DNA from: Flexivirga endophytica
GTDB taxonomy: Bacteria > Actinomycetota > Actinomycetes > Actinomycetales > Dermatophilaceae
Direction of reading: 5' to 3'
Assembly: GCF_014640635.1 (NCBI RefSeq)
Contig: NZ_BMHI01000002.1
Coordinates: forward strand, 434,001-498,000
Length of the DNA stretch: 64,000 nt
Of the stretch, positions 10,692 to 35,687 are shown piece by piece. Numbering within the stretch: the first letter of the stretch is position 1; each line of letters opens with the position of its first letter. A model generated the notes under the pieces. The model was not told where the DNA came from. It saw only the letters and a list, made by a program, of their open reading frames with translations, and ran no database searches. Made by a program: the position numbers and the translations under genes.

Positions 10692-10767
10692 CAACCCGGT
10701 CGTTTCCTGGCGGCATACAGCTGTAGTTGTCAGAATGGCGGCACATCGATGCGCAGGAGGCCGCCCC

Positions 10768-15021: not shown

Positions 15022-16542
15022 TCAGGCCTTCGTGACGGCGGGCGCGGCGTCGGGCTCAGCAATCGGTCCGGTCTCCTGCATCGCCACCTTCTGGCGTCTC
15101 AGGATGTATGCCGCCAAGAACGACAACACCAGCGCGGCTATCACACCGAGGTTCGCATAAGCCCAGTTACCGCTCCACGAAGCGGTTTTCGCGTCATACG
15201 TGCCGAGGCCCAGCGGGTGCAGCAGATAACCCTGCCAGTTGTTCCAGGACGCGTCCTGTGCGTAGTTGTTGACCACCAGGCCCCAACCGATCAGCGACGT
15301 GATGACGAGGATGCCGATCGAGGTCCAGTCCCAAGCACCGTAGCGGCCGGCCGGATCGAAGAGATCCTCCTCGGCATACGAACGCTTCCGCAGTGCGATG
15401 TCGGCGATCATGATGCCCGCCCACGAGGCGAGCGGCACACCCAGCGTGATGAGGAACGATTGGAACGGGCTGGCGAAGCTCTCCGCGACGAAGACGACGT
15501 AAATCGTTCCGAGAGTGAGGATCACGCCGTCGACCAGTGCCGCCGTGGGGCGTGGGATGCGGACGCCGAGGGAGAGCAGGGTGAGCCCCGAGGAGTAGAT
15601 GCCGAGCACCGCTCCGCTGACCAGCGACAGGATCGCGGCGATCAGGAACGGCACGAGGAACCACGTCGGCAGGATCTCTGCCAGCGCGCCGATCGGGTTG
15701 GCCAGGATGCCGCTCGCGACCTTCTTGTCCGACCCCGCCAGCAGCAGGCCGAAGATCACCAGGATGACCGGAGCGATAGCACCACCGAAGGTGTTCCAGA
15801 CGACGATCTGTCCACCCGAGGCGTCGCGTCGCTGGTAGCGCGACCAGTCTGCGGCGATGTTGATCCAGCCCAGTCCGAAGCCGGTCATCACCATGACCAG
15901 GGCGCCGATGGTCTGCTGCCAGCTCCCGGACGGCATCGCGGTCACCTTCGACCAATCGATGTGTGAGGCGGCGACGATCATGAAGACGATGGTGATGATG
16001 CCGGTGATCCAGGTCAGCCAGGACTGCATCCGCATGATGATGTGGTAGCCCGCGACGGACGCGAGCACCACGAGCGCGGCCACCACGATGCAGGCGATGA
16101 TCTTGGTGGTGGTCCCGCCGCCCCAACCGAGTTGGTGCATGACGGTCGCGGTGGCGAGCGTCGCGTTGATGGTCAAAAAGGTCTCCCAGCCGATCGACGT
16201 CAGCCAGCTGATCACGCCGGGGACCTTCTGGCCGGTCACGCCGAATGCCGCGCGGGACAGGATCATCGTCGGCGCCGAGCCGCGCTTGCCGGCCAGCGCG
16301 ATGATCCCGCACAGGGCGAAACTCGCGATGACACCGATCAGGACCACCACGACCGACTGCCAGAACGAGATGCCGAAGCCGAGCACGAACGCGGCGTAGG
16401 AGATGCCGAAGACCGACACGTTCGCGGCGAACCACGGCCAGAAGAGGTCGCGCGGCTGCGCCGTCCGCTCGGCCTCCTCAATGATCTCGATCCCCGTCGT
16501 TTCCACACCGAGACGCCGCACGTCCTGCTGGGTTTCGTTCAT
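15022..16542 (-). CDS. NCS1-family purine/pyrimidine-type permease
   Basis: 506 residues from ATG 16542 with about 12 membrane segments. NCS1 marks include the N-terminal RDLFWPWFAANVSVFGISYAAF, SRAAFGVTGQKVPGVISWLTSIGWE, and GLGWINIAADWSRYQRR. The frame extends 42 codons further upstream but without family character. Homologs import cytosine, purines, hydantoins, allantoin or thiamine-like rings by proton or sodium symport. It lies upstream of the cysteine hydrolase in one operon and diverges from the LLM oxidoreductase gene over about 116 bases that must hold both promoters. Confidence 0.9.
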   Translation of the reverse strand: MNETQQDVRRLGVETTGIEIIEEAERTAQPRDLFWPWFAANVSVFGISYAAFVLGFGISFWQSVVVVLIGVIASFALCGIIALAGKRGSAPTMILSRAAFGVTGQKVPGVISWLTSIGWETFLTINATLATATVMHQLGWGGGTTTKIIACIVVAALVVLASVAGYHIIMRMQSWLTWITGIITIVFMIVAASHIDWSKVTAMPSGSWQQTIGALVMVMTGFGLGWINIAADWSRYQRRDASGGQIVVWNTFGGAIAPVILVIFGLLLAGSDKKVASGILANPIGALAEILPTWFLVPFLIAAILSLVSGAVLGIYSSGLTLLSLGVRIPRPTAALVDGVILTLGTIYVVFVAESFASPFQSFLITLGVPLASWAGIMIADIALRKRSYAEEDLFDPAGRYGAWDWTSIGILVITSLIGWGLVVNNYAQDASWNNWQGYLLHPLGLGTYDAKTASWSGNWAYANLGVIAALVLSFLAAYILRRQKVAMQETGPIAEPDAAPAVTKA

Positions 16543-16658
16543 TGCGAGAGCATGGCAGATCAGCGGCTGCGAGGGACTCGGTTTTCCGCCGCGTTCGGCG
16601 GTTCGCAGCGTGTATGGCGAGCGGGAACAGCCGACGCCGCGTGTTTGTTCAAATTTGT

Positions 16659-17711
16659 ATGAAAGCATTCGGGTTCCTCAGTTTCGGTCATTACGCACGG
16701 GTGCCGGGGTCGCGGACGCCCGACGCAGCCAGCGTGCTGAAGCAGTCGGTGGACATCGCGGTCGGCGCGGACGAGATAGGCGTGAACGGCGCCTACTTCC
16801 GCGTCCACCACTTCGAGCGGCAGCTGTCCTCCCCGATTCCGTTGCTGTCCGCGATCGCGGCCCGCACGCAGCACATCGAGGTCGGCACCGGGGTCATCGA
16901 CATGCGCTACGAGAACCCGCTGCAGCTGGCGGAGGAGCTCGGCGCCCTCGATCTGCTCGCCGACCAGCGGATCGCCATCGGCATCTCCCGTGGCTCACCC
17001 GAGACCGCGCAGCGCGGCTACGAGGCGTTCGGCTACACCGGTGCGCAGGACCCGCGGGGCGGCGACATCGCACGAGCGAAGTTCGCGACCTTCCTCGACG
17101 CGATCGGTGGTGAGGGAATGGTGGCCGCCGACCCGCAGCGTGCGATGCCCGGCACCCGGTTGCGCATCGAACCACGCTCCGACGGTCTGCGGGATCGCAT
17201 CTGGTGGGGGTCCGGCTCACGCGAAACAGCCGAATGGACAGGCGAACTCGGCCTGAACATGATGTCGTCGACGCTGCTCACAGAGGCCAACGGCGCATCC
17301 TTCGCCGACCTGCAGGCCGAGCAGATCGAGCGCTTCCGGACGGCGTATGTCGCAGCAGGTCACACCGGACGGCCACGCGTGTCGGTGTCCCGCAGCATCT
17401 TCCCGATCGTCGACGAGCGCGACGCGGCATACTTCGGCGGCGCCCGCGACAGCGACCAAGTTGGCGTCATCGACGGGTTCCGGTCGACGTTCGGCAAGAC
17501 GTATGCCGACGAACCCGATCGGCTCATCGAGCAGCTACGCGCCGACGCCGCCGTGATGGCCGCGGACACCGTCATGCTGACGATCCCGAACCAACTCGGC
17601 GTGGACTACAACCTGCACGTGCTCCGGGCGTTCGCGCAACACGTCGCGCCGGCGCTGGGCTGGCGCGCGAACACCGAAGGCCCGGTGCAGGGGGACGAAC
17701 CGGCCGAGTGA
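16659..17711 (+). CDS. LLM-class flavin-dependent oxidoreductase
   Basis: 350-residue luciferase-like monooxygenase (F420- or FMN-dependent TIM barrel). Recognisable parts are VNGAYFRVHHFERQLSSPIPLLSAIAARTQHIEVGTGVIDMRYENPLQLAEELGALDLLADQRIAIGISRG and the C-terminal IPNQLGVDYNLHVLRAFAQHVAP. The ATG at 16659 is preceded immediately by the palindrome CAAATTTG (16650–16657), leaving no room for a ribosome binding site, so the mRNA may be leaderless. It diverges from the NCS1 permease. The substrate is unknown. Confidence 0.88.
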   Translation: MKAFGFLSFGHYARVPGSRTPDAASVLKQSVDIAVGADEIGVNGAYFRVHHFERQLSSPIPLLSAIAARTQHIEVGTGVIDMRYENPLQLAEELGALDLLADQRIAIGISRGSPETAQRGYEAFGYTGAQDPRGGDIARAKFATFLDAIGGEGMVAADPQRAMPGTRLRIEPRSDGLRDRIWWGSGSRETAEWTGELGLNMMSSTLLTEANGASFADLQAEQIERFRTAYVAAGHTGRPRVSVSRSIFPIVDERDAAYFGGARDSDQVGVIDGFRSTFGKTYADEPDRLIEQLRADAAVMAADTVMLTIPNQLGVDYNLHVLRAFAQHVAPALGWRANTEGPVQGDEPAE

Positions 17712-17788: not shown

Positions 17789-18562
17789 ATGACCGAGCAG
17801 TCGCCCGGCCTCGCACGACCCGCGCCAGTTCCAGGCCAGGCGCCGACGACGGGTGGCACGCGACGCCCCTGGTTGATCGGGATCGTCGCCGCCTTCGTGG
17901 TGGTGGCGTTGGTGGTCGGCGCCGAAGTATTCGCCCGGCATCAATTGCGCAGCAAGGTCTCGGATGCGATGGCGAACGGTCTGCACACCTCACGTGTGGA
18001 CGTCGGTATCGGATCCTCGCCCGCGCTGCTCGACCTCGGGCGCGGCACGATCGATCAGGTGTCGCTGAACGCCCGGAAGGCGACGGTCTGCCAGGTGCGC
18101 GATGTCTCACTGGACGCGAAGGTCCACGACGTCTCGACGTCGCCGTCCGGTGGTCGGATCGGGGCCTCGGAGCTGACGCTGACGCTGACCGGGAAGTCGC
18201 TCAACGACCTGCTCGCCGGCTCCGGCAAGGCGGATGGCGTGACGGCGACGACCCGGTCCGGATCGGACACGGTGCGACTGACCGGCCTGGGCGGTTTGGC
18301 TCGTGTGCAGGTGCGGCCGAAGGTGACCGACGGGAAGCTCGACTTCACGGTCGTGTCGGCGTCGTTCGCCGGACGCCCCGTGCCTGCCGCGCAAGCGCAG
18401 AAGCTGCTCCGTGGGGGTGGCGCCAACCGGCTCGAGGAGTTGCCACTCGGGCTTCGCGCCACAGCCGTGCAGGTCACCGACGCCGGGCTGGAGACCAGCT
18501 TCCGTGGCGAACCGACCACGCTGCCGGAGGGCAAGCAGCCGCTGAGTTGTGCAGGAGGGTGA
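17789..18562 (+). CDS. DUF2993 (LmeA-like) membrane-anchored lipid-binding protein
   Basis: 257 residues: a Pro-rich cytoplasmic N-terminus, one membrane anchor (PWLIGIVAAFVVVALVVGAEVF, about residues 29–50), then an extracytoplasmic DUF2993 domain. The pattern VDVGIGSSPALLDLGRGTIDQVSLNARKA is typical of that family. Mycobacterial LmeA is a periplasmic phospholipid-binding protein needed for lipoglycan maturation. Placement at the head of an acyltransferase/glycosyltransferase/exporter cluster suggests it handles a lipid product outside the membrane. The two Cys (VCQV and LSCAGG) could pair. Confidence 0.8.
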   Translation: MTEQSPGLARPAPVPGQAPTTGGTRRPWLIGIVAAFVVVALVVGAEVFARHQLRSKVSDAMANGLHTSRVDVGIGSSPALLDLGRGTIDQVSLNARKATVCQVRDVSLDAKVHDVSTSPSGGRIGASELTLTLTGKSLNDLLAGSGKADGVTATTRSGSDTVRLTGLGGLARVQVRPKVTDGKLDFTVVSASFAGRPVPAAQAQKLLRGGGANRLEELPLGLRATAVQVTDAGLETSFRGEPTTLPEGKQPLSCAGG

Positions 18563-18629
18563 ATGTGGTGAAAACCATTGAGGTGCAACGAACATTGAGC
18601 CCGACGAGCGTGTCACACTGGCGGCCGCT

Positions 18630-20105
18630 ATGGAGATGACATCTATCGAGTCGTGGCACCCGCGCCCCGGCGAAGTACTCGAGATCCGGCCCACTGAGCA
18701 GACACTGGATGCCACTCGTTCGGCTGCTGCCCTCACTGCGCGACCGTCGCTGTTGCAGGAGTCGCACATCCGAACGGCGGCCGATCGGCGCGCGAAGGGC
18801 GTGCCGTGGTCGCCCTGGCTGGCGTTCTCCTTCCACATCCCGCAACCGCTCGACCGCGACGCGCTGCGACGCACGATGCAACGTTTCGTGACCCGGCACG
18901 GGGCTCTGCTCAGCTGGTTCGAGATCCCCGACGACGCACAGATCGACGACAGCACGACGTTCACCCGCCGGGCGCTCGAGGCCGATGACGTCGAGCTGGA
19001 GCTGGTCGACGCCGGCGTCGCGGCGGACACCGAGGCGGCTCGAGCGGCGATCACCGAACGTTTCGCGGCCGGCACGAGTCCGTTGGAATGGCCGTCGTTC
19101 GCGGCCGGCGCGATCGACCACGGTGCGGACGGATTCAGCGTCTACTACGGCGTGGACCACTCCTTCACCGACGGCGTCTCGATCACTCTTGCTGTGGACG
19201 ACATCTTCCGGATCTATCAGCTCGAGGCGCACGGCGAAGGTGCCGAGCCTGCGGAGGTCGGCAGCTACGTCGACTTCAGCGAGGTGGAGCGCGCTCGTTC
19301 CGAGCGCCTGACCTGGCGTACGCCGGCCGTTCGAACCTGGGCACGGGCGCTGCTGTCGGTCCGCAACAAGCTGCCCAGCACGTCGCTCGACATCGGCCTC
19401 GAACCCGGCGAGACGGGGCCGTCCACGCGGACGAACCGCACTCTCGCCGACGCTGCCACCATGCAGGCGTTCGAGCAGCGCTGCAAGGCACACGGTGGTG
19501 GCGCGAGCGCGGGCCTGTTCGGCATCCTCGCGCTGATCGACGTCGCGCTGACGGGCCGGTCGAGCTATTTCGTGCTCAACACGGTCGCTACGCGTTCCGA
19601 GCCGCAGTACGCGATGGCACAGGGTTGGTTCATCAATCTGGTGCCGGTCGCGTTCCGGGTTCCTCGACGTGCCGGATTCGACGACCTGGTCGGCAGGGCG
19701 CAGAAGTCGATGAATCGCTCCAAGGCCGCGACCGACGTCCCGGCGCGCGCGATCGTCGACTACGCCGCGAAGTTCGGTGGGGTGAAGGTCGGCGCGACCG
19801 CCGTGCCGCCGATGGTGTCCTACCTCGACATGCGTCGCCTGCCCGGCGCGGAGCTGCCAGGTGTCGACGACGCCCACGCGCTCGGCGGGCCCGGCACGAC
19901 CGGCGACGTGTCGATGTGGCTCAACCGGCGCACCGACCGGACCTATGCGCTGATGAGCTATCCCGACAACGCAACAGCTGCCGCGAGCATCGACCACTAC
20001 TTCCGGGCCATCACCGAGCTCATCCGCGCGGTGGCGTCCGGTGAGCTGGTCGGCATCGAAACCGCTCGAGCGGCAATGGGATCCGCGGTTCCGGCGACGA
20101 GCTGA
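18630..20105 (+). CDS. PapA/condensation-like acyltransferase 1
   Basis: 491 residues of the CoA-dependent acyltransferase superfamily that includes mycobacterial PapA proteins and NRPS condensation domains. The catalytic motif is H177-SFT-D181-G (VDHSFTDGVSI). Other marks are FVTRHGALLSWFE, AQGWFINLVPVAF and VSYLDMRRLPGAEL. It is a stand-alone enzyme with no carrier or adenylation domain, so it most likely moves an acyl group from CoA or a carrier protein to a hydroxyl. It shares the GWF and Y/F-x-D-x-R-x-LPG blocks with the next two genes, so the three are paralogs. Start ATG 18630; ATG 18636 is possible. Confidence 0.82.
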   Translation: MEMTSIESWHPRPGEVLEIRPTEQTLDATRSAAALTARPSLLQESHIRTAADRRAKGVPWSPWLAFSFHIPQPLDRDALRRTMQRFVTRHGALLSWFEIPDDAQIDDSTTFTRRALEADDVELELVDAGVAADTEAARAAITERFAAGTSPLEWPSFAAGAIDHGADGFSVYYGVDHSFTDGVSITLAVDDIFRIYQLEAHGEGAEPAEVGSYVDFSEVERARSERLTWRTPAVRTWARALLSVRNKLPSTSLDIGLEPGETGPSTRTNRTLADAATMQAFEQRCKAHGGGASAGLFGILALIDVALTGRSSYFVLNTVATRSEPQYAMAQGWFINLVPVAFRVPRRAGFDDLVGRAQKSMNRSKAATDVPARAIVDYAAKFGGVKVGATAVPPMVSYLDMRRLPGAELPGVDDAHALGGPGTTGDVSMWLNRRTDRTYALMSYPDNATAAASIDHYFRAITELIRAVASGELVGIETARAAMGSAVPATS

Positions 20106-20121
20106 ACTCACCAGTCGCTCC

Positions 20122-21462
20122 TCAGTCGGCGAGCTGTCGCAGGCTGCCCTCGACCTCGTCCAGCCAGCGGCCGACGATGCGCCGAGCTGCGCCCGTGTCG
20201 GGCAGCCGGCAGCGCAGCGCCAGGCCGGAGTCGTCACGAACCCACCACAGCTGCACGTCGGTGGTCGGCGCGTCCGGGCTGGCCTGGGTCATCCGCAGGG
20301 CGTCGTGCAGCTCGTGGCCCGGCACCCGCCGGTAGTCGACGAACGACACCATCCCGACGTCACCGGTGTGCGTGAATCCCGGTGGGTATGACGCGATCAC
20401 GTCGCTCAGGCGCATCGCAGCGAGGTGCCGGGCTCGCTCGACCTGCTGCTGCGCTGCGGCCACAGCATCCTCGAGCGGCAGATGACCGGGGACGACGACC
20501 GGACCGTTGCTCACGAACCAGCCGACCGCCTCCCGCCACTCCGCACGGTCCCGGGTGCCCACCGGCAGGAGCGTGGCGAACTCGTCGCACAGGTCCTGTC
20601 GATGGGCGGCACGCGCGCAGACCGTAAGCAGGCAAGCCGGCAGCCGGGCGTCGTGGGCGCGGCCCCACTGCTCCACCGCGGCGGCCTGCGCCGCGGTCAG
20701 GGTATGGCGTATTTCCACGGCAGCCTCGCCCCGGCCGTGGCGGGCGTCCTCGGGTAGCGGGAACCGTGGCAGGCCACCGGAATTGCGCCGGAAGAACTCG
20801 TGCCATTCGGCCACCCGCGGGTCGTCAGGGTCGGTAGTGTCAGCGGCTTCCGCCCGGCAGGCGTCCAGGAAGGAGCCGACCGCTGGCAGGTGGGCCGTCG
20901 TGCGGTCGCGGTCGGTCCCGCCGGAGGCGGCGCCATACAGCTGGACGAAGTCGCGGCCGAGCAACGGCATCGAGACGGCGTCGGTGACGCCATGGTCGAC
21001 GGCGAGCACGATCTGGGTCCGATCGCGACCTTCGATGGCTGCGCAGCAGATGGTCGGGCCGGTCAGCGAGTGCGTGGCGGTGTCGATCACAGCCATCAGC
21101 CGGGTTCGGCGCTCCGCGGCGTCGTCGGGCAGATCGGATTCGCTGAGGGTGCAGCTGAATTCAGCGCCGAAGTCGATCGTCGTCGGTGTCCCGTCGGTGA
21201 GATCGACCATGGTCCGTAGGGCTTCGTGACGGGACAGCAGACCGAGCAGCGCTGTTGGCAGGGCCGACCGATCAACGTGCTCGGGCAGCTCCAGGGTCAG
21301 GCAGAGCCAGCCACCGCTGTCCCTGCGGGCGGTGGCGTGATTGACCTGGTTGAACGACGGTGGCGCGTCGAGGACCGCCCGTGGCGGCGCGGTCGGGGTC
21401 GGCGTGCACAGCACCAGCCGTCCGCGTGGTGGTTGCAGTCGAGCGGCCGTCGTGAGCCGCAT
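20122..21462 (-). CDS. PapA/condensation-like acyltransferase 2
   Basis: 446 residues from ATG 21462. The active-site motif is H157-GVT-D161-A (AVDHGVTDAVS): catalytic His and structural Asp are kept, but the usual Gly is Ala. LLSRHEALRTMVDL, EAVGWFVSNGPVVV and VSFVDYRRVPGHEL match the paralogs. The start overlaps the stop of acyltransferase 3 by one base (TGATG), so the two are coupled. It converges on acyltransferase 1 with a 16-base gap. The acyl donor and acceptor are unknown. Confidence 0.8.
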   Translation of the reverse strand: MRLTTAARLQPPRGRLVLCTPTPTAPPRAVLDAPPSFNQVNHATARRDSGGWLCLTLELPEHVDRSALPTALLGLLSRHEALRTMVDLTDGTPTTIDFGAEFSCTLSESDLPDDAAERRTRLMAVIDTATHSLTGPTICCAAIEGRDRTQIVLAVDHGVTDAVSMPLLGRDFVQLYGAASGGTDRDRTTAHLPAVGSFLDACRAEAADTTDPDDPRVAEWHEFFRRNSGGLPRFPLPEDARHGRGEAAVEIRHTLTAAQAAAVEQWGRAHDARLPACLLTVCARAAHRQDLCDEFATLLPVGTRDRAEWREAVGWFVSNGPVVVPGHLPLEDAVAAAQQQVERARHLAAMRLSDVIASYPPGFTHTGDVGMVSFVDYRRVPGHELHDALRMTQASPDAPTTDVQLWWVRDDSGLALRCRLPDTGAARRIVGRWLDEVEGSLRQLAD

Positions 21463-22844
21463 CAGGCAGTCAGTTGGACCGGTTGCCGCGCGAGTTGCCG
21501 CAGCACCGTGGTGAATTCGCTGAGGTAGCGCTCCACGCTCAGGGTGGCGGTCGGATTGTTGGGGTGTCGCACCGACACGTTGAGCCCGCCCCGCGCGCGC
21601 ACCACCCAGAAGTAGAACTCGTCGTCGGAGTAACGGATGCTGCGTAGCGCACGTGCACGCGCTGCGTCGAACTGAGCCGCGCCGGGCAGGTGCCGGACGT
21701 CGACGTAGGAGACCACGAAGCGCGGTGCGGATGCGATGCCGAGCAGGTCGGCGATCGATGCGAAAGGGATCTGCGCATCGGCGCGGACATGGGCGGAGGC
21801 GGACTCTGCGCGGTCCAGCTGCTGCCCCAGGTCGGTGACGCCGGCCAGGTCCAGCACGAGAGGGCTGATGCCGACGAACCAACCCATGGATGTTGTGTAT
21901 TCGGGGGTACGGGTGTGCATCGGCATGACGAGTCTCAGGGCCTCGTCGGTGCCGGTCGCGTGTTGCATGGCGGTGGCGAGAGCGACCAGCACCGCTGACT
22001 GCATGCCGTGACCCAAAGAGCGTGCGTGTTCGTGGATCGTGTCACTGACCTCGGCCGGTGCCAGCCAGCGCGAGATACTGCGTTGGGGGAGGGTCAGGTC
22101 GCGTGCCGCGTCGTTCGGCAGTGGGAATGCCGGGAACCTCGGCTCCTCCGGATCGAGGAAGCGCTCCCATCGACGGGTGGTCTCGTGCCCGTGATCGGCG
22201 ACGGCCGCCCGCGTTCGTTCCGCGACGCTGAAATCGACGTAACTCGGGGCAGGTTCGGTGACGAGCTGCTCGCCGCCGAGTGCGGCGGCATACAGCTGAT
22301 CGAGCTCGGAGACGGCGATGAGCTGGGAGTACGCGTCCATCACCGAGTGGTCGGCTGCGAACGCGAGGAGGAACCTCGGCCCGTCGTCCTGGTTGGTCGG
22401 CACGATGGTGGCAGCAACCAGGTGGGGCCACGTGTCGGCGCGAACGGTGTGGTCGAAGAAGCGTGAGACGACGTCGTAGACGCGCTCCACCGAATCGTGC
22501 GTGCCGGCGTCCCGCGCGGTCAGTTCGAGGCTCTCCGGGCGGTAGGTGACGCGGTGCAGACCACTTTCGTCGCGGGTCACCATCGTGCGGAACGACTCAT
22601 GCTTCGCGTGCCAGGCGAGCAGGGTGCGTCGGACAGCGTCGGCATCGAACGGTCGATTGATCTCGAAAACCGTTCCGATCCATGACGGTTCGGTAGGGTT
22701 GCCAGCCTGCTGCACATGCTTCTCGTGCTGCGGCGACAGCGGTCGTTCGTCAGCCGCGTCGGTACTGGGTGTCGTGGACGTCGCTCGCCAGAACGCGACC
22801 GAACCAGCGTAAACCTGGTAGTCGGCGAGTTCGGTGTATTCCAC
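21462..22844 (-). CDS. PapA/condensation-like acyltransferase 3
   Basis: 460 residues from GTG 22844, with a GAAAGGAGC ribosome binding site about 8 bases upstream. The N-terminus (VEYTELADYQVYAGSVAFWR) is typical of stand-alone PapA-type proteins. The motif is H166-SVM-D170-A (ADHSVMDAYS), again with Ala for Gly. KHESFRTMVTRD, TTSMGWFVGISPLVLDL and VSYVDVRHLPGAAQF align with acyltransferases 1 and 2. A perfect palindrome lies 68 bases upstream. It is probably the first gene of a two-gene unit with acyltransferase 2; the glycosyltransferase lies 103 bases upstream on the same strand. Confidence 0.82.
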   Translation of the reverse strand: MEYTELADYQVYAGSVAFWRATSTTPSTDAADERPLSPQHEKHVQQAGNPTEPSWIGTVFEINRPFDADAVRRTLLAWHAKHESFRTMVTRDESGLHRVTYRPESLELTARDAGTHDSVERVYDVVSRFFDHTVRADTWPHLVAATIVPTNQDDGPRFLLAFAADHSVMDAYSQLIAVSELDQLYAAALGGEQLVTEPAPSYVDFSVAERTRAAVADHGHETTRRWERFLDPEEPRFPAFPLPNDAARDLTLPQRSISRWLAPAEVSDTIHEHARSLGHGMQSAVLVALATAMQHATGTDEALRLVMPMHTRTPEYTTSMGWFVGISPLVLDLAGVTDLGQQLDRAESASAHVRADAQIPFASIADLLGIASAPRFVVSYVDVRHLPGAAQFDAARARALRSIRYSDDEFYFWVVRARGGLNVSVRHPNNPTATLSVERYLSEFTTVLRQLARQPVQLTA

Positions 22845-22911
22845 TTCGCGGGCTCCTTTCGCGCCGGGCAGCGCGATACGAGAGGACAGGATGATGTGGG
22901 CCGGCGCCGAA

Positions 22912-22929
22912 GGTTACGGCACCGTAACC
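22912..22929. promoter_or_regulatory. Perfect palindrome, TetR-type operator candidate
   Basis: GGTTACGG-CA-CCGTAACC has 8-bp perfect half-sites with a 2-base spacer in the 103-base gap upstream of acyltransferase 3. On the minus strand a TTGAAC hexamer lies about 18 bases before TTACGG, so the palindrome may cover the −10 region. No TetR gene is in the window. Confidence 0.6.
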
Positions 22930-22947
22930 AGTGTGGGCAACATTGGT

Positions 22948-24213
22948 TCAAGAGTGGGTAAAGCTCTGCAGTTCAATCAGATCAGCGGCGTGTCCCACGG
23001 CTGCTGCCGGGCTGGTCAGTCGTCCGGCCAGCGTGCGGGCCCGGTCTCGCGTCGGGTCCGTGAGGAGCGTAGTGAGTGCCGTGACGCACTCATCGGCGGT
23101 CAGGTCGCGGAATCTCCGGTAGCTCCCGACCCGGAGTGCCTCCAGGCGTCGGCCCCAGAGGGGCTGGTCGGCGTTGAACCAGGTGATCAGCGACGGTATG
23201 CCGGCACGCAGTGCTGCGGCGGTGGTGCCCGCACCACCGTGATGAACCGCGGCGACGCAGCGCGGCAGGACCCGATGATGATCGACGGCAGGCACGATAC
23301 GGAGGTAGTCGTCCGCGGCATCGGCGAACGTCGACCAGCCTGCGGCGACCAGTGCTCGACAACCCAGTCGCCGTGACACGTCCCGCACCATGGCCAGCAT
23401 GTCGTCGGGGGAGGCGACCGGCATACTGCCGAATCCCCAGTAGATGCAGCGACCTTCGTCCAACCAGGTGTCCAGCTCGCTCTGGTCGTTCGCTCCGTCG
23501 AGCGCAGCACGCGTCTCGGGGGACAGGTCGAGGAAGCCGACGAGCGGTCGCCGTACACCCCATTCATCACCCAGTTCCGGGAACAGGACGGGGTCGATGG
23601 CCTGCACCTCGAGTGATCCGGTGTTCGTCATGCGTTGCGCGACCGAGGTCCGCGACGGACCGAGGCCGATGCGTGCACGCATGGCGTCCTCGCCGCGTCG
23701 GGTCATCAGCCGCCACGACCGGTCCGCGAGCCACCAGGCGAGGTGGTGGACCGGATCCGCTGCGACCGGCGGATCCGGAAGCAGGTGAACAGATTCGGAG
23801 CGCCTGATCGGGTAGTAGTGCATGGCCACCTGCGCGATCCGGTGCTTGTCGGCCAGTGCCCGAGCGACCTCCTGACCGAGGAAACAGGTGACGATCAGGT
23901 CGGATTCAGCTGCCACCCCGTCGAGGGCCAGCGCGAGCTCGGTCCAGCCGAAGGTTCCGAGCTCGGACAGGCCGCGCCAGCGAGTGCGTGGGTTCGGCGA
24001 CTTGATGCGGTGTTGGACCAGATCCGACTCCAGCAGTGCAGCAGAATCGGGTCCGGTCGTGAGCGGTTCGATCCCGGCACGTCGAGCGAAATCGACGAGG
24101 TTCGGAGGAACCCCGAGCCGAACGTCGTGCCCGCGGCGGCGGAGCTCGAGCGCGAGTGCGACACCCGGCTGCACATCTCCGCGACTGCCGAGGAACGGCA
24201 TGAGGATTCGCAT
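22948..24213 (-). CDS. GT1-family glycosyltransferase (MGT/Gtf-like)
   Basis: 421 residues from ATG 24213. The N-terminal MRILMPFLGSRGDVQPGVALALELRRRGHDVRLG and the C-terminal donor-binding block AVHHGGAGTTAAALRAGIPSLITWFNADQPLWGRRLEALRVG are diagnostic of the GT-B, GT1 enzymes that glycosylate glycopeptidolipids, sterols, carotenoids and macrolides with nucleotide sugars. IYWGFGSMPVASPDDM is the matching linker motif. There is no membrane segment. With five acyltransferases beside it, it likely builds the sugar head of a lipid or small molecule. It diverges from the exporter ATPase over 116 bases containing a GAATCAC/GTGATTC inverted pair (24224, 24272). Confidence 0.87.
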   Translation of the reverse strand: MRILMPFLGSRGDVQPGVALALELRRRGHDVRLGVPPNLVDFARRAGIEPLTTGPDSAALLESDLVQHRIKSPNPRTRWRGLSELGTFGWTELALALDGVAAESDLIVTCFLGQEVARALADKHRIAQVAMHYYPIRRSESVHLLPDPPVAADPVHHLAWWLADRSWRLMTRRGEDAMRARIGLGPSRTSVAQRMTNTGSLEVQAIDPVLFPELGDEWGVRRPLVGFLDLSPETRAALDGANDQSELDTWLDEGRCIYWGFGSMPVASPDDMLAMVRDVSRRLGCRALVAAGWSTFADAADDYLRIVPAVDHHRVLPRCVAAVHHGGAGTTAAALRAGIPSLITWFNADQPLWGRRLEALRVGSYRRFRDLTADECVTALTTLLTDPTRDRARTLAGRLTSPAAAVGHAADLIELQSFTHS

Positions 24214-24329
24214 GCCGTGTAGCGAATCACGAATGTCTGCAAGTGCATAAGGATCGCGAGCGGTGGGAAAGGTGATTCTCGTCGCACGGGCCGCTCCGAA
24301 GATGCTCTCCAGGTGTCCGATGCGGCACC

Positions 24330-25301
24330 ATGGCGGCCATGACACCCACTCCCGTCGACCGCGGCCCGGCGGTCGACGTGCGAGATCTGACCGTTCGGTT
24401 CGGCGAATTCGTCGCCGTCGACGGTGTCAGCTTCACCGTGCCGACCGGGTCGGTGCTGGGCCTGCTCGGCCCGAACGGCGCCGGGAAGACCACCATCGTG
24501 CGGGTGCTGGCGACCCTGCTGCCGGCCACCAGCGGCACCGCCGGCATCTTCGGGCACGACGTTCGGCGGGACCCGCACGCGGTACGTGAAGTGATCGGCG
24601 TCACGGGCCAATACGCCTCTGTCGACGAAGAATTGACAGCACGCGAAAATCTGCTGATCTTCGCGCGACTGCTGCGCTACACGCGTGCCGGTGCTCGGCG
24701 ACGATGTGACGAGCTGCTCGAGGAGTTCGCGTTGAGCGATGCGGCCGACCGTGCGCTGAAGAATTTCTCGGGCGGTATGCGCCGGCGTCTCGATCTGGCG
24801 ACCAGTCTGATTGCGGAGCCACCACTGATCTTTCTCGACGAACCCACCACCGGACTCGACCCTCGCACGCGGCAGCAGATGTGGGCGACCGTGCGGCGAC
24901 TGGTGGACGGTGGATCCACGGTGGTCCTGACGACGCAATACCTCGAAGAGGCCGACCAGCTCGCGGACAACATCGTGGTCATCGATCATGGGCGGGTCGT
25001 CGCGGAGGGATCCGCGGACCACCTGAAGTCATCGGTAGGCACGGGCACTTTGCGACTCGTGCTGCGCGACGGCGCCGAGCGGGCGACGGCGGGGTCAGTC
25101 ATGGAGCAGTTGGCCGGTCACCAGGTCGAGATCGACAGCGACGGATCGCTGGCGGTTCCCGTCAACGACGCGTCCCTCGTGACGGACGTGCTGATCGGGT
25201 TGCGGGACAAGGGAATCGAAGTTGACGACGTCGGGGTGCACAAGCCGACCCTCGACGAGGTCTTCTTCCAACTCACCGGGAACCGCGAGGACACCGTATG
25301 A
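24330..25301 (+). CDS. DrrA-type ABC exporter ATP-binding protein
   Basis: 323 residues. Walker A GPNGAGKTT near residue 48, signature FSGGMRRRLDLATSL, Walker B LIFLDEPTTGLD, and a C-terminal extension ending PTLDEVFFQLTG, the pattern of daunorubicin-resistance (DrrA) ATPases. These drive export of antibiotics or, in mycobacteria, cell-envelope lipids (DrrABC with phthiocerol dimycocerosates). The start is ATG 24330 or 24339. The stop overlaps the permease start (ATGA). Confidence 0.93.
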   Translation: MAAMTPTPVDRGPAVDVRDLTVRFGEFVAVDGVSFTVPTGSVLGLLGPNGAGKTTIVRVLATLLPATSGTAGIFGHDVRRDPHAVREVIGVTGQYASVDEELTARENLLIFARLLRYTRAGARRRCDELLEEFALSDAADRALKNFSGGMRRRLDLATSLIAEPPLIFLDEPTTGLDPRTRQQMWATVRRLVDGGSTVVLTTQYLEEADQLADNIVVIDHGRVVAEGSADHLKSSVGTGTLRLVLRDGAERATAGSVMEQLAGHQVEIDSDGSLAVPVNDASLVTDVLIGLRDKGIEVDDVGVHKPTLDEVFFQLTGNREDTV

Positions 25302-26122
25302 CGGAGGCCACCGCTCAGACACGCACGCAGTACCGACAGCGGCATCTACCCAGCCGAAGGCCAACTGTCTCCGGCACTGCCGCAGCCTCGCTCACGCTGG
25401 CCGCGCGTGGTCTGCTGAAGGTCCGGCACAACCCCTTCCTGCTCTTCGACGTCGTGGCATTGCCGGTCGTCCTGACAGCGATGTTCGCCGGGATCTTCGG
25501 CGGGGCCATCGCCGGCAGCGTGGGCAACTACCTGCCTGATCTCGTTCCTGGTGTCCTGGTGCAGGTCGCGGTGACCGCAACCGTGAACACCGGGGTCCAG
25601 TTGTGCGACGACGTCGATCGGGGCGTCTTCGACCGGTTCCGCTCGATGCCGATCGCCCGGATCGCACCCCTGATCGGTGCGCTCACCGCCGACGTCGTCC
25701 GGTACGTCGTCGCAGCGGTGATGGTGGTCGTGGTCGGACTCGTGATGGGCTACCGCCCGGACAGCTGGCCAGGTTTGCTGCTGGGCTGCCTACTGGTCAT
25801 CTACACGGCGTTCGCACTCAGTTGGGTCTTCGCGTTCCTCGGCGTCCGTATGCCGAGTGCGCCCGCGGTGCAAGGCGCTTCGATGTTCGTGCTGATGCCG
25901 ATGACCTTCGTATCCAACGCGCTGGTGCCGACCGCGCACATGCCGTCATGGATCAAATGGTTGGCCGACATCAACCCCGTCTCGCACTTGGTCACGGCCG
26001 TGCGGCAACTCGCCAACGAGGGCACCCTCGGGGTGGACATCCTCTGGTCGCTCGTCGGCGCGACCCTGATCATGCTGGTCATGGCGCCCATCGCGGTCCG
26101 TGCCTACATCCGGAAGACGTGA
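25298..26122 (+). CDS. DrrB-type ABC-2 exporter permease
   Basis: 274 residues with six predicted membrane helices after a polar N-terminus of about 30 residues. ABC-2 features include VPGVLVQVAVTATVNTGVQLCDDVDRGVFDRFRSMPIAR and the FVSNALVPTAHMPSWIKWLADINPVSHLVTAVRQL C-terminal block. It pairs with the ATPase upstream (ATGA overlap) and is followed with a GTGA overlap by acyltransferase 4, so transport and acylation genes are one transcript. That supports export of an acylated product. Confidence 0.92.
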   Translation: MTEATAQTRTQYRQRHLPSRRPTVSGTAAASLTLAARGLLKVRHNPFLLFDVVALPVVLTAMFAGIFGGAIAGSVGNYLPDLVPGVLVQVAVTATVNTGVQLCDDVDRGVFDRFRSMPIARIAPLIGALTADVVRYVVAAVMVVVVGLVMGYRPDSWPGLLLGCLLVIYTAFALSWVFAFLGVRMPSAPAVQGASMFVLMPMTFVSNALVPTAHMPSWIKWLADINPVSHLVTAVRQLANEGTLGVDILWSLVGATLIMLVMAPIAVRAYIRKT

Positions 26123-27489
26123 GTAACCGCGTGAATGCAGTCCCCGACGACAACCGCCTCTGCCCACCGGAAGAAGCGTTCGTGTTGGCCGAGCAGGTGC
26201 TGGACCTGCCGGTCATCAACCAGCTGATCTGGCGGTTCGACACACCCCTGGATGCGGGCCGACTGGAAACAGTCGTGGACCGGCTCCGCGACGGGCCGTT
26301 GACCCGTCGACTGCACCGGGCCGGTGCTCCCTTCGCGCGCGCCAGCTGGACTGCGGCACCGTTCTCGGCACCCGTCCTGCGCATCGACGACGACATCGAT
26401 CGTGCGGAGCTGATCGCGTGGGCCGACCACGATGTTCGGCGATCGTTCCGATCCGACAGCGGTGTGCCGTGGACCGTTTCGGCCGCACCGATGCGTGAAG
26501 GTGGCCACGCGGTGGTATTCACCGCGCCGCACACGATCTCCGACGGGTCCGGCGTGTTCGCAGCATTCGAGGCTGCGGTCACCGGCGACGACATCGGCCG
26601 GTTGCCCCACGACCAGGCGCCGAGACCGAGCAGGTCGGACGACCTGCGCGATGGTGCACGGCAGGCGACGGCTGCGGTGGCCGGTCCGGTTCGAGCGGTC
26701 CGGATGGCCCTGCGCAAGCGCAGAGACAGCAGCGCTGATGCGCGGCCACCGCGCCCCGGCCAGCCGGAGCGGCCCGACACCCGACCTTTGCCCGATGCCG
26801 AGCCTGCGGCATTCGCGGTCGCCGAATTCCCCGCATCCGAGTGGCGGGGAGCGGCGGAACTCCGTGGGGGATCGGCGAATTCGTTGCTCACCGCGTTCGG
26901 GATCGGGCTGCTGGAGGCGTCCGGACGGATCGACGCGGTCGACCGGATCCCCGTGTCGATCCCGGTCGCGGTGCGGAGACCGGGCGATCGCAGGGCCGTC
27001 GCGACGATCGGAGCGACCATGACGGCCGACACCGGGCCCACGCGGTATGACGACCTCCGGCCGCTGCGGAACGCCGCCCGCGAGGCCTTCCAGGACGCCA
27101 CGGACCCGGACCGCGATCAGGAGGATCTGCTGCGGCTGCTGACCCCGACGATCCGGCTGATGCCACGGAAGCTGTTGCGTTCCATGGCTCTTCGACAACC
27201 GGCGGCAGTGTTGACCTGCTCCAATCTCGGCGAGGTGCCCGATCCGGTCGCCACGCTCGGGGGTCCCGACGCCGGTGCGGTAAGCGCACGGATGTCGGTG
27301 CAACACGCGACTGTCGAGCAGTTGCGCACCGCACGCGGTGGCCTGACGACCTGGCTGGCGTTCTCCGGAGGCAACGCCGTGCTCAGCACCCTCAGCATGG
27401 ACCCCGACCGCTGGCCCGACAGCGTCTCGGTGCAGCGTGCGATTGCCGACGAAGCAGCGAAATGGTCTCTGACACCAAGGTTCTGGTGA
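26119..27489 (+). CDS. HxxxDG acyltransferase 4 (second subfamily)
   Basis: 456 residues from GTG 26119, which overlaps the permease stop; GTG 26131 is an alternative. The motif H138-TIS-D142-G (APHTISDGSG) marks the CoA-dependent acyltransferase superfamily. TCSNLGEVPDP late in the protein resembles the SN(V/L)G block of alcohol-acetyltransferase and wax-ester-synthase relatives. It aligns with the next gene throughout, including GGSANSLL, GGLTTWL and a terminal Trp. It is distinct from acyltransferases 1–3. The acceptor is unknown. Confidence 0.75.
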   Translation: MSNRVNAVPDDNRLCPPEEAFVLAEQVLDLPVINQLIWRFDTPLDAGRLETVVDRLRDGPLTRRLHRAGAPFARASWTAAPFSAPVLRIDDDIDRAELIAWADHDVRRSFRSDSGVPWTVSAAPMREGGHAVVFTAPHTISDGSGVFAAFEAAVTGDDIGRLPHDQAPRPSRSDDLRDGARQATAAVAGPVRAVRMALRKRRDSSADARPPRPGQPERPDTRPLPDAEPAAFAVAEFPASEWRGAAELRGGSANSLLTAFGIGLLEASGRIDAVDRIPVSIPVAVRRPGDRRAVATIGATMTADTGPTRYDDLRPLRNAAREAFQDATDPDRDQEDLLRLLTPTIRLMPRKLLRSMALRQPAAVLTCSNLGEVPDPVATLGGPDAGAVSARMSVQHATVEQLRTARGGLTTWLAFSGGNAVLSTLSMDPDRWPDSVSVQRAIADEAAKWSLTPRFW

Positions 27490-27498
27490 GGTCCACTC

Positions 27499-28866
27499 AT
27501 GGCACATGACCCCACCGTCACCTATGACAACCGCTTCACCTTCGGGGACGACGCCTACTTCCTCAGCGAGGACCTGCTCGGGGTCCCCGTTGCTTCGCAG
27601 CACACCTGGTGGCTCCCTGAGCCACTGTCGGCCGAAGCGCTCCGTTCGATCCATGACGGTCTGCACCAGGGACCGTTGAGCCGGCTCGTGGTCGAGTCGC
27701 GTGTGCCCGGAGCTCGGCGCCGCTGGGTGCCGGCCCCGGCCAGTGACCGGCTGAGCATCGCTGCCGAGCCGGTCCCTCCGGAGGGCCTGATGGCCTGGTG
27801 CGACGAGCAGTTGCAGATACCCGTCGACCCGGTGCGTGGGCCGAGCTGGTGGCTGTCGGCGACGCCGGTCAGCGGTGGCGGCCAGCTCGTGTCGCTCGTC
27901 ACCCGCCATACGATCGGCGACGGCGGCCTGATCGTGCAGGCGGTCGACGCCGCGGTGACCGGCATCCGACTGCCCCAGGTGCCGGACGAGCGGCCGGGCT
28001 CGTACGCCGTGCGGTTGCGTGACGACCTCCGGGACGCGGCCCATCAGTATGTTGCGGCCGGCCGCGGTCTGGTCGACGCGGTGCGTGCGTTGCGCGGGCG
28101 GAAAACCCCGTCGACACCCGATGCCCCGACGACGGCGGACCGGTCCGACCGATCGTTGCGGGCAGATCCGACCTCGTCATACGTCCCGCCATTCGTGGCG
28201 GTCGACTTGTCCGCCGACGCCTGGCGGGTCGCGGCGGACGCCCGTGGCGGCACCTCGAACAGCCTGCTGCTGATGGTCTCCGCGAGCCTGGCGGTCGCGG
28301 CCGGACTCGCGCAGGAGGGCGACACAGTACTCGTCGCGATGCCGGTCCGCCGGCGTGACGAGGGCGACTACCGCTCGAACATGCTCGGTGGCGCGTCGGT
28401 GCCGGTGCGGGTGACGACTGATCGCCACGCCGACCTGCGCGGGGTCCGTGCTGCGACCAAGGCGGAGCTGACGCGGGCCGCCGATCCGACCCGGACATCG
28501 GTGCTCGACCGGCTCCAACCCGTCGCGCGCGTGCTGCCCCGCCCCGTCATACGCAAGATCGTCGAAGGTATGCCGGCATCCCTGGTGTCGGTGTCGAACG
28601 TCGGTCGTATGACGGTCCCGGGCGGCAGTCTCGGCGGTCCGACGGCTCTGTCGATGATGTGTCGCGGGGTGCATCGCAACATCACAACTGACCTGCTGCG
28701 GGCCGCGGGCGGCGGAGTGACGACCTGGCTGCAGGAATTCGGCGACCGGATGACCCTGACCGTGGAAGCGCTCGCTCCCGATCGCATACCGGACCGGGAG
28801 CGACTCGCGGCGCTGGTGACAGAGGAACTGGGCTGCTGGGACGTGGAGCCGCTGCAGGTCTGGTAG
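27499..28866 (+). CDS. HxxxDG acyltransferase 5 (second subfamily)
   Basis: 455 residues, nine bases after acyltransferase 4 and clearly its paralog. Motif H137-TIG-D141-G (TRHTIGDGGL), GGTSNSLLLM, SVSNVGRMTVPGGSLGG, GGGVTTWLQEFGDRMTLTVEAL, and a C-terminus also ending in Trp (PLQVW). The N-terminal region starts with an FLSEDLLGVPVASQHTWWLPEPL segment parallel to FVLAEQVLDLPVINQLIWRFDTPL in its partner. It ends the exporter operon 64 bases before the formate dehydrogenase operon. Confidence 0.75.
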   Translation: MAHDPTVTYDNRFTFGDDAYFLSEDLLGVPVASQHTWWLPEPLSAEALRSIHDGLHQGPLSRLVVESRVPGARRRWVPAPASDRLSIAAEPVPPEGLMAWCDEQLQIPVDPVRGPSWWLSATPVSGGGQLVSLVTRHTIGDGGLIVQAVDAAVTGIRLPQVPDERPGSYAVRLRDDLRDAAHQYVAAGRGLVDAVRALRGRKTPSTPDAPTTADRSDRSLRADPTSSYVPPFVAVDLSADAWRVAADARGGTSNSLLLMVSASLAVAAGLAQEGDTVLVAMPVRRRDEGDYRSNMLGGASVPVRVTTDRHADLRGVRAATKAELTRAADPTRTSVLDRLQPVARVLPRPVIRKIVEGMPASLVSVSNVGRMTVPGGSLGGPTALSMMCRGVHRNITTDLLRAAGGGVTTWLQEFGDRMTLTVEALAPDRIPDRERLAALVTEELGCWDVEPLQVW

Positions 28867-28930: not shown

Positions 28931-31900
28931 GTGGGTCGATTCAGCGCGTTGGAGTGGCCGGTCTTCCGGCAGTTGCGCTCCGGGGACCACCTCGGGCGCG
29001 GCCCCGCCGTGGCGTCGGCGAAGACCCGCGCCACGCAGTCGCGCAACGCCACCGCGGATCGTGTCGTCCAGAGCATCTGCCCCTACTGCGCGGTCGGCTG
29101 CGGACAGCGGGTCTACGTCAAGGACGAGAAGGTCGTCCAGATCGAGGGCGACCCGGACTCGCCGGTGTCTCGCGGCCGGTTGTGTCCCAAGGGCGCTGCC
29201 AGTGAGCAACTCGTCAACGCTCCCGGACGGCAGTACGACGTGCTCTACCGGGCGCCGCGCGCGACCGAGTGGCAGAAGCTGGATCGGGACACCGCGATCG
29301 ACATGATCGCCGAGCGCTTCGTCCGCAGCCGCCGCAACACCTGGCAGGAGACCGACGACGAAGGTCGGATCCTACGGCGCACCATGGGCATCGCGTCCCT
29401 GGGCGGCGCGACCCTGGACAACGAAGAGAACTACCTGATCAAGAAGCTCTTCACGGCGGCGGGCGCCATACAGATCGAGAACCAGGCACGTATTTGACAC
29501 TCCGCCACGGTTCCCAGTCTGGGATCCTCCTTCGGGCGCGGCGGCGCCACCCAAACGCTCCAAGACATGGCCAACGCGGACTGCATCGTCCTGCAGGGCG
29601 GCAACATGGCCGAGGCGCACCCGGTCGGCTTCCAGTGGGTTGCTGAGGCAAAAGCACGCGGTGCCAAGGTGATTCACGTCGACCCACGGTTCACCCGGAC
29701 ATCTGCGGTCGCTGACAAGCACGTCGCGATCCGGGCCGGTTCGGACGTGGCGCTGCTCGGCGCACTGATCAACCATGTCCTCAGCAACGAGCTGTGGTTC
29801 AAGGACTACGTCGTGGCCTACACGAACGCCGCGACGCTGGTCGGTGAGGACTTTCAGGACACCGAGGACCTCGGCGGGCTCTTCTCTGGATTCGACCCGG
29901 AGACAGGCACATACGACTCGTCGTCATGGGCCTACGCCCACGCTCATCCGGACGAGCACCAGCCGCATCAGGGCGGCGCACCGGGCGACGCGCTGGGCAG
30001 CGGTGGTCCGCCGCTGCAGCACGCGGAGGTGGAGCGGGACGAGACCCTGCAGCACCCGCGGACCGTCTTCCAGATCCTGAAGCGGCACTACTCGCGTTAC
30101 ACGCCGGAGATGGTGCAGGAGGTGTGCGGCATCTCGCCCGCCGACTTCGACTACCTGGCGCGCGCGGTGACCGAGAACTCCGGTCGGGAGCGCACGACCT
30201 GCTTCGCCTATGCGACGGGCTGGACACAGCACACGCTGGGTGCGCAGTTCATCCGCACCGCTGCGGTGCTGCAGTTGTTGCTGGGCAACGTGGGTCGGCC
30301 GGGCGGCGGCATCATGGCACTGCGCGGACATGCCAGCATTCAGGGATCCACGGACATACCAACGCTTTTCAACCTGCTGCCGGGCTATCTGCCGATGCCG
30401 ATGGCCGGCAACCACGACAACCTGCAGGACTACCTCGCATCGGTGGGCACCAAGCAGCAGAAGGGCTTCTGGGCCAACTCCGACTCCTACTTCGTGAGCC
30501 TGATGAAGGCCTATTTCGGGGATGCCGCCACCGCTGAGAATGACTGGTACTTCGACAGATTGCCCCGTATGACGGGCGCCCACGGCACCTACGAAACGGC
30601 CATGAGCATGCTGGCGGACGAGGTCGAGGGATACTTCGTGCTCGGCCAGAACCCCGCGGTCGGATCGGCCAACGGCAAGCTGCAGCGCGAAGGGATGCGG
30701 CACCTGAAGTGGATGGTGGTGCGTGACCTCAGCCTGATCGAGAGTGCCACCTGGTGGAAAGACTCACCGGAGGTGGAGTCGGGCGAAGTGCGCACCGAGG
30801 ACATCGAGACCGAGGTCTTCTTCATGCCGGCCGCGACCCACGTCGAGAAGGCCGGCTCGTTCACCCAGACACAGCGGATGCTGCAGTGGCGACACCAGGC
30901 GGTGCAGCCGCCAGGTCAGTGCCAGAGCGAGATGGACTTCTTCTTCGAACTCGGCCGTCGCATCCGGGGGCTCGTCGCCGCGTCCGACGATGAGCGGGAC
31001 CGCCCGCTGCTCGACATGACGTGGGACTACCCGGTCGACGACGAGGGCAACCCGGACCCGGAGTCGGTGCTGCGCGAGATCAACGGATACCGCACCACGG
31101 ACACCGGTGAACGCGAATTGCTCTCCAGCTACACCGAACTCGCGGCCGACGGGTCCACCTCATCCGGATGCTGGATCTACACCGGAGTGTTCGCGGACGA
31201 CCAGAACAAGGCCGCGCGGCGTACTCCGCACGGCGGCCCGGGCGTGAGCCAGTCGCAGTGGGGCTGGGCATGGCCGTCAGACCGGCGGATCCTCTACAAC
31301 CGCGCGTCCGCGGACCCCGACGGCAAGCCGTGGAGCGATCGCAAGAAGTACGTGTGGTGGGACGAGAGCGAGCAGAAGTGGGTCGGCGACGACGTGCCGG
31401 ACTTCCCGGTCGATCGCGCCCCGCACAGTCGCCCCGACCCGGCTGTCGGTGGGCCGGCCGCGCTGGCCGGGGACGACCCGTTCATCATGCAGTCCGACGG
31501 CAAGGGCTGGCTCTTCGCACCGAAGGGTCTGGTCGACGGCCCCCTGCCCACGCACTACGAGGCGCAGGAGTCACCGGTGCGCAACGGGCTCTACCCGCAG
31601 CAGCAGAGTCCCGCCCGGTTGATCTATCCGCGGCAGGACAATCTGTCCGCGCCCAGTGCCGGCACGCCGGGAGCGGGGATCTACCCCTTCGTCTTCACCA
31701 CCTACCGGCTCACCGAGCACCACACGGCCGGAGGTATGAGCCGCTGGCTGCCCTACCTTTCCGAGTTGCAGCCGGAGATGTTCTGCGAGGTGTCGCCGCA
31801 ACTGGCTGCGGAGCGTGGTCTGGTCAACGAGGGTTGGGCCACGATCGTGTCGCCACGGGCCGTCATCGAGGCTCGTGTCCTCGTCACCGAGCGGATGAAG

Positions 31901-32200
31901 CCGCTGACCGTCGGCGGCCGGATAGTGCACCAGGTCGGGCTTCCCTACCACTGGGGTGTGGGCAACCACGCTCTGGTCACTGGTGATTCGGCGAACGATC
32001 TGATCGGTGTGACGCTGGATCCGAACGTGCAGATCCAGGAGTCGAAGGTCGCGTCCTGTGATGTGATTGCCGGTCGCCGCCCGAGAGGTCGAGCCGCTGA
32101 CGCGCTGTTGGCGTCATACAACGAACGTGCGGGGGTGACGGTGCACACTGACAACCAGCGGGTCACCGACGTGCGCGAGGAGGATGTCGACGATGAGTAG
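28931..32200 (+). CDS. fdnG: Selenocysteine-containing formate dehydrogenase, catalytic subunit
   Basis: A 1089-residue molybdo/tungsto-bis-MGD formate dehydrogenase read through an in-frame TGA at 29495–29497 (Sec 189, followed by His). The bases before and after the TGA encode ARI-Sec-HSATVPSLGSSFGRG, matching ARV-Sec-HGPTVASLAPTFGRG of E. coli FdnG. The [4Fe-4S] Cys are C50, C53, C57 and C85 (SICPYCAVGC ... RGRLCPKG). Later blocks (WTQHTLGAQFIRT, GCWIYTGVF, WAWPSDRRILYNRASADP) also match FdnG. No Tat signal is visible at the N-terminus (GTG 28931), so this subunit probably faces the cytoplasm. It overlaps the Fe-S subunit gene and reduces quinone through the NrfD-type subunit. Confidence 0.95.
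29495..29527 (+). promoter_or_regulatory. Sec UGA codon and bacterial SECIS hairpin
   Basis: The TGA at 29495 is followed by a hairpin at 29509–29527: GG(U)UCCCA pairs with UGGGA(U)CC around a GUC apical loop. E. coli fdnG has the same arrangement (GCA-AGUC-UUGC), including the loop G-U that SelB recognises. The stem is interrupted only by one U·U mismatch. Confidence 0.88.
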
Positions 32201-35591: not shown

Positions 35592-35687
35592 GGAGGCGTC
35601 AGGGTTCCTGGTGGGCCCCCCGGTCTTCAAAACCGGTGAGGCCGAGCATCTCGGTCTGGCGGGTTCGATTCCCGTCCGTCTCCGCCA
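35592..35687 (+). tRNA. selC: tRNA-Sec (anticodon TCA)
   Basis: 96 bases including an encoded CCA. It has a long acceptor stem (GGAGGCG with CGTCTCC), anticodon stem CCGGT/ACCGG around CTTCAAA (TCA at 35627–35629), a long variable arm with a 7-bp stem (GGCCGAG-CAT-CTCGGTC) and the T-loop GGGTTCGATTCCC. Discriminator G and the extended variable arm are typical of tRNA-Sec. It sits between selD and selA. Confidence 0.95.

Follow-up and report, generated by a model that had tools for sequence, protein, structure and literature searches.

What is made by a gene cluster that carries five acyltransferases, a glycosyltransferase and an exporter, with neither a polyketide synthase (PKS) nor a nonribosomal peptide synthetase (NRPS)? 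The question is raised by a 64,000-nucleotide stretch of the Flexivirga endophytica genome (contig NZ_BMHI01000002.1, positions 434,001–498,000 of the forward strand; here called the window, with all coordinates counted from its first letter), where nine genes span positions 17789–28866. Each of the nine is judged real and falls inside these coordinates. A first-pass annotation made from the letters alone listed an LmeA-like protein, three PapA-type acyltransferases (AT1–AT3), two HxxxDG acyltransferases of another type (AT4, AT5), a GT1-family glycosyltransferase and DrrA and DrrB, and Pfam and NCBIfam matches together with motifs bear out this content. With moderate confidence, the cluster is read here as a PKS-independent route to a sugar lipid, most likely bearing four or five ordinary fatty acyl chains, which it would make and export by means of a trehalose core, optional glucosylation by GT1, five acyltransferases and DrrAB.

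AT1 (18630–20105, + strand, 491 aa), AT2 (20122–21462, − strand, 446 aa) and AT3 (21462–22844, − strand, 460 aa) match the Condensation model PF00668 with E-values of 1.9e-21, 3.9e-16 and 3e-24, and display the HxxxD catalytic motif as HSFTDG, HGVTDA and HSVMDA, respectively. The condensation fold is full-length in all three, which are related to PapA2 and not to NRPS domains. Of all proteins with a solved structure, PapA2 (6aef), the trehalose-2-sulfate acyltransferase of Mycobacterium tuberculosis, matches AT1 best (E-value = 5e-38, residues 3–475), the runner-up giving only 1.9e-5. PapA2 likewise ranks first for AT2 (1.5e-12) and for the AT3 profile (6.8e-15). Because AT1–AT3 are close to this trehalose acyltransferase, we infer that trehalose is their acceptor in CoA-dependent acyl transfer. 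When 40 PapA-like proteins are placed in a maximum-likelihood tree, the three enzymes fall into three ortholog groups (supports 84/84, 100/100 and 100/99), each of which includes members from genomes G822, G482, G502, G419 and G903. The form of the active site is kept within groups, HxxxDG for AT1 and HxxxDA for AT2 and AT3, and AT3 shares 64–79% identity with its orthologues. Thus the AT1-AT2-AT3 triplet is an old shared set.

The absence of PKS and NRPS genes, noted earlier for the cluster, extends to the whole assembly (4.72 Mb, completeness 98.95%). No multidomain megasynthase was found there: PF00668 matches only AT1, AT2 and AT3, and the ketosynthase model PF00109 gives a single strong match, to a single-domain-sized protein (437-aa frame). 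Five other PF00109 matches are fragments of 30–45 residues with E-values of about 5e-6 to 5e-4 and are read as thiolase-like. With one true ketoacyl synthase, the assembly shows no linked or genome-encoded PKS for a branched acyl chain of the kind that marks mycobacterial PKS-papA loci. Thus the acyl chains must derive from ordinary fatty acid metabolism, and the single ketosynthase indicates that Flexivirga probably makes no mycolic acid. The lack of PKS and NRPS also supports the earlier suggestion that the core comes from primary metabolism, and OtsA, for trehalose, is encoded in the genome. Among the cores then proposed, a sugar gains from the nearness of AT1–AT3 to PapA2, while nothing was found in support of a carotenoid or polyol.

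The nine genes are a real unit. They are complete and in the same order in G003 and G004, both of the same genus; G004 is Flexivirga meconopsidis (NZ_JAOBQJ010000001.1), where the cluster lies at about 552–563 kb of the first contig. G007, from another genus of the same family, shows eight of the nine genes, without LmeA, with the order kept but with different flanks. In its copy a further glycosyltransferase gene, of the GT2 family, separates DrrB from AT4 (L014:15461–16549, + strand), a hint that the product there carries an additional sugar. Strong matches to AT4 and AT5 are found in only four of 188 family genomes: the window genome, G003, G004 and G007. G002, of the same genus, lacks the cluster and keeps the flank order of the window (ligase, FMN dehydrogenase, permease, LLM oxidoreductase, formate dehydrogenase), the site of the cluster being occupied by a single unrelated open reading frame of about 317 codons. 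It is the order kept in G003, G004 and G007, and the absence between intact flanks in G002, that identify the unit.

Several neighbors were considered as members and set aside. The fatty acyl-CoA ligase (10525–12297) occurs in G001 and G002, which lack the cluster, and in G007 it sits on a different contig; the FMN dehydrogenase (12298–13629) keeps its flank order with the ligase in G002. The LLM oxidoreductase (16542–17711) adjoins the empty site in G002, whereas G003 and G004 have it at the opposite flank of the cluster, and it did not turn up in those parts of G007 that were read. The downstream formate dehydrogenase is a chromosomal flank, present in G002. The cluster was also considered as a mobile element, but its edges have no common 9-mer and no transposase was noticed.

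The first-pass annotation knew of no described system with this make-up. This was too strong, as ortholog groups of AT1–AT3 are found in other families and one locus matches the layout of Rhodococcus sp. I2R. Two further actinobacterial families (f22, f24) have loci that combine AT1, AT2 and AT3 with AT4/5-type enzymes; GT1 usually accompanies them, and DrrAB often does. The G822 locus reads accE-maf-AT4/5-GT1-AT4/5-AT3-AT1-AT2-sseA-sufE-AT3'-accA3, where accE, maf, sseA, sufE and accA3 are named via an annotated Tsukamurella locus. Its PapA genes start at offsets of 0/1483/2929/5885 bp, as compared with 0/1478/2912/5823 bp for papA3/papA1/papA3/papA3 on I2R contig 9 (PMC8396431); the spacing agrees to about 60 bp, in a comparison of layout, not of sequence. 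The papA3-papA1-papA3...papA3 series of I2R was given a candidate role in succinoyl saccharide ester/trehalolipid formation, proposed by annotation (PMC8396431). I2R makes succinoyl esters of two-hexose and three-hexose units, and the authors take the latter unit to be trehalose with a third hexose, glucose, attached (PMC8396431). A trisaccharide with beta-glucose on trehalose has been published for strain BS-15. The genetic basis of succinoyl trehalose/glucotriose biosurfactants is poorly understood, with tlsA alone implicated (PMC8396431).

The window cluster and the G822 locus have in common orthologous AT3, AT1 and AT2, two AT4/5-type enzymes and GT1 (44% identity between the window and G822 sequences), and no PKS is seen at the G822 locus. 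However, G822 carries neither DrrAB nor LmeA there, displays another gene order and genomic position, and has the extra AT3'; in Flexivirga the PapA triplet is split over two strands. Other arrangements are DrrA-DrrB-AT4/5-GT1-AT3-AT1-AT2 in G502, AT5-DrrB-DrrA-AT5'-AT3-AT1-AT2 in G419 and G903 (five acyltransferases and DrrAB, without GT1), and a reduced set, AT4/5-DrrB-DrrA-GT1-AT3, in G913.

More distant assemblies were also seen. Tsukamurella tyrosinosolvens (NZ_LR134451.1, L063, 7400–17461) holds PapA5-like and AT4/5-like acyltransferases, GT1 and PapA at the maf-sseA-accA3 position, which G482 and G822 use as well. It was tried as the same cluster and rejected as a cousin, since it includes PapA_C (PapA5-like) proteins. 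In G588:C74 (L049/L050) one papA precedes a tandem run of five genes of the AT4/5 family and a gene for a 953-aa membrane protein, with no PKS seen in the stretch. A PapA-like condensation protein of 30% identity is found on a plasmid of Sinorhizobium terangae (L064, 8076–14290), in a block that also holds GMC oxidoreductase, aminotransferase, HAD hydrolase and glycosyltransferase genes and is met on Sinorhizobium symbiotic-type plasmids; Cupriavidus taiwanensis has proteins similar to this PapA-like one.

Similar mycobacterial enzyme sets had been said to sit beside a PKS, and the genomes agree. From gene context and layout, g77 is inferred to be Mycobacterium and g81 Rhodococcus. In the inferred Mycobacterium genomes G246 and G281, PapA, two to three AT4/5-type enzymes and GT1 (39–40% identity) adjoin a PKS of 2,085–2,095 aa with the domains KS-AT-DH-ER-KR-ACP, and the window cluster looks like a PKS-free relative of these PKS-papA loci. 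Mycobacterial loci of this kind, for lipooligosaccharides and acyl-trehaloses (pks5-like PKS, PapA, GT1, Sap/Gap), share with it a 27% identical PapA that is sister to AT1, two or three AT4/5-type enzymes, GT1 and, in G281, a DrrA-type ATPase. They differ in the adjoining PKS, in having one PapA only, in an AT4/5 subfamily that splits off at 100/100, and in the SfLAP (Sap) protein of G246. The M. tuberculosis pathways for sulfolipid (PapA2, PapA1) and for diacyltrehalose/polyacyltrehalose (PapA3) have, to our knowledge, no glycosyltransferase or DrrAB. These pathways employ Pks2 or Pks3/4 products, Chp esterases and MmpL exporters, but share the stepwise, export-coupled acylation of trehalose by PapA enzymes (PMC6996325, PMC4183827).

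AT4 (26119–27489, + strand, 456 aa, GTG start, motif HTISDG) and AT5, of the same family (27499–28866, + strand, 455 aa, HTIGDG), match no Pfam or NCBIfam model, including those for WS/DGAT, PapA and condensation proteins. HxxxDG is invariant in eight AT4/AT5 orthologues and present in nearly all of 32 aligned family members, and the family tree places the two as sister paralogues with moderate support (89/91). A PDB profile match for this type reaches just E = 0.002, and a profile comparison against AT3 gives no match. The AlphaFold model of AT5 (pLDDT 81) retrieves condensation-domain, WSD and AzeD-type folds with Foldseek, with E-values to 2e-16. AT4 and AT5 are thereby predicted, from the model, to be condensation-fold enzymes with HxxxDG. 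Their assignment to WS/DGAT or PapA by sequence was rejected, no model having matched and the likeness being in fold alone.

The GT1 glycosyltransferase (22948–24213, − strand) has 421 aa with its start corrected from 24345 to 24213, and contains the motifs GSRGDVQP and HHGGAGT. It matches EryCIII-like_C (7.7e-16) and Glyco_transf_28 in Pfam, and its relatives are glycopeptide, macrolide and sterol transferases. Enzymes of this GtfB-like type are inverting. DrrA (24330–25301, + strand, 323 aa; ABC_tran 9.7e-32) passes the NCBIfam drrA model TIGR01188 (344.5 against a cut-off of 312.45 bits, E = 5e-103). DrrB (25298–26122, + strand, 274 aa) is an ABC-2 permease (ABC2_membrane 4.7e-30) that matches the Mtu_efflux/DrrB models below cut-off. 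The pair thus resembles DrrABC of phthiocerol dimycocerosate/daunorubicin export in its DrrA subfamily and ABC-2 permease, but has one permease gene and no DrrC.

The LmeA-like protein (17789–18562, + strand, 257 aa) matches PF11209 with E = 1e-20 (75.2 bits against a gathering score of 27.3) and shows an N-terminal hydrophobic stretch at about residues 28–48, as read from the sequence, followed by the LmeA domain. It is the single LmeA in the genome. Within the genus LmeA is found in all three cluster-bearing genomes and in neither of the two cluster-less ones. Because G007 has the cluster without LmeA, the protein is put forward only tentatively as a candidate extracytoplasmic lipid-binding partner.

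The nine genes form three transcription units, LmeA-AT1 (+), GT1-AT3-AT2 (−) and DrrA-DrrB-AT4-AT5 (+), and not two divergent ones as first described. The AT2 start, corrected to 21462, overlaps the AT3 stop (TGATG); DrrA and DrrB overlap at ATGA, and the DrrB stop overlaps the AT4 GTG start at GTGA. Thus the translational coupling of exporter and AT4 noted earlier is real. AT4 and AT5 are 9 bp apart. The corrected GT1 start leaves 116 bp (24214–24329) between the divergent GT1 and DrrA genes, which is likely a regulatory region.

A path can be proposed from these parts. Trehalose from primary metabolism would be the acceptor, and GT1 would extend it to a trisaccharide, most probably by transferring a beta-glucose from UDP-glucose. 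Soluble AT1, AT2 and AT3, whose family is clear and whose acceptor is presumed, would each ester-link an ordinary acyl-CoA chain to a set hydroxyl, and AT4 and AT5, judged by predicted fold and a presumed substrate, may attach further acyl groups. DrrAB, an exporter by family and co-translated with AT4, would carry the product across the membrane as its presumed cargo; the LmeA-like protein might then take it up outside. By analogy the product is likely a tri- to penta-acyl (glucosyl-)trehalose similar to the succinoyl trehalose/glucotriose lipids of Rhodococcus, which five acyltransferases and one glycosyltransferase roughly fit in number of acyl groups and sugars. The lack of GT1 in G419 and G903 fits a pre-existing core with optional glucosylation. 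F. meconopsidis is reported to contain two glycolipids of unassigned structure and mainly iso- and 10-methyl-branched fatty acids (PMC10745605). None of the antiSMASH regions published for contig 1 of this species (134–160, 412–455, 650–672 and 798–827 kb, region numbers being taken as contig numbers) covers the cluster.

Several points weigh against an acylated trehalose. AT2 and AT3 share just about 25–29% identity with AT1, and similarity to PapA does not fix the acceptor. Antibiotic and sterol glycosylation also occur within the subfamily of GT1. The Flexivirga product is deduced from its genes and the likeness to I2R from gene layout, and the I2R assignment is itself an annotation-based proposal (PMC8396431). 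A scan of the GT1/DrrA intergenic region found no sigma-70-like site, although such a scan is uninformative at this GC content. An acylated glycoside built on an acceptor other than trehalose, be it glucose, sucrose, glycosyl-glycerol, inositol, some further sugar or polyol, or a lipid first glycosylated by GT1, is a possibility of some weight, though a doubtful one. The glycopeptide, macrolide and sterol transferases related to GT1 would suit it, as would the activity of PapA-type enzymes in other settings, such as the Sinorhizobium condensation protein with its GMC oxidoreductase and glycosyltransferase neighbors, but PapA2 is the top solved match of AT1–AT3, the orthologous layout is that of a Rhodococcus locus proposed for trehalose-based lipids, and GT1 is dispensable in G419 and G903, which argues against a core made by GT1.

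Some actinobacteria decorate carotenoids with GT1 and acyltransferase sets, and terpene regions are found elsewhere in the F. meconopsidis genome. Decoration and export of a secondary metabolite such as a terpenoid or carotenoid glycoside ester, with its core encoded elsewhere in the genome, is nonetheless unlikely: no core-forming or terpenoid-tailoring gene is found in the cluster or alongside it in G003, G004, G007, G419, G502, G822, G903 or G913, and a carotenoid glycoside ester would hardly call for as many as five acyltransferases. Very improbable is a resistance or detoxification locus, in which GT1 would inactivate an antibiotic that is also modified by the acyltransferases and expelled through DrrAB. 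DrrA does score above the daunorubicin-resistance subfamily cut-off and in NCBIfam GT1 scores best against Rgt, which inactivates rifamycin, though far under the cut-off of that model (118.6 against 800 bits), but this reading leaves unexplained the five acyltransferases with their three conserved PapA ortholog groups, and also the connection with the PKS-papA loci of the genus inferred to be Mycobacterium.

If a polyacylated trehalose is accepted, a wider proposal may be ventured, as a conjecture: AT1-AT2-AT3 with AT4/5-type enzymes and an optional GT1 might form a general PKS-free actinobacterial pathway to (glucosyl-)trehalose polyesters and so supply the genes still lacking for the succinoyl trehalose/glucotriose biosurfactants, with AT4/5 a new acyltransferase family and the Flexivirga product passed to DrrAB and not to MmpL. 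The comparison of these loci offers a compact, transferable candidate gene set for these biosurfactants. It adds an HxxxDG acyltransferase family outside all Pfam and NCBIfam models, and ties Flexivirga to pathways mostly discussed for mycolic-acid bacteria.

At the downstream flank, the formate dehydrogenase alpha subunit (28931–32200, + strand) is divided into two open reading frames by one in-frame TGA at codon 189 (...NQARI-U-HSATV...). A tRNA-Sec gene is found 3.4 kb further downstream (35592–35687, + strand). The enzyme is of the selenocysteine type, with the iron-sulfur and NrfD subunits encoded after it.

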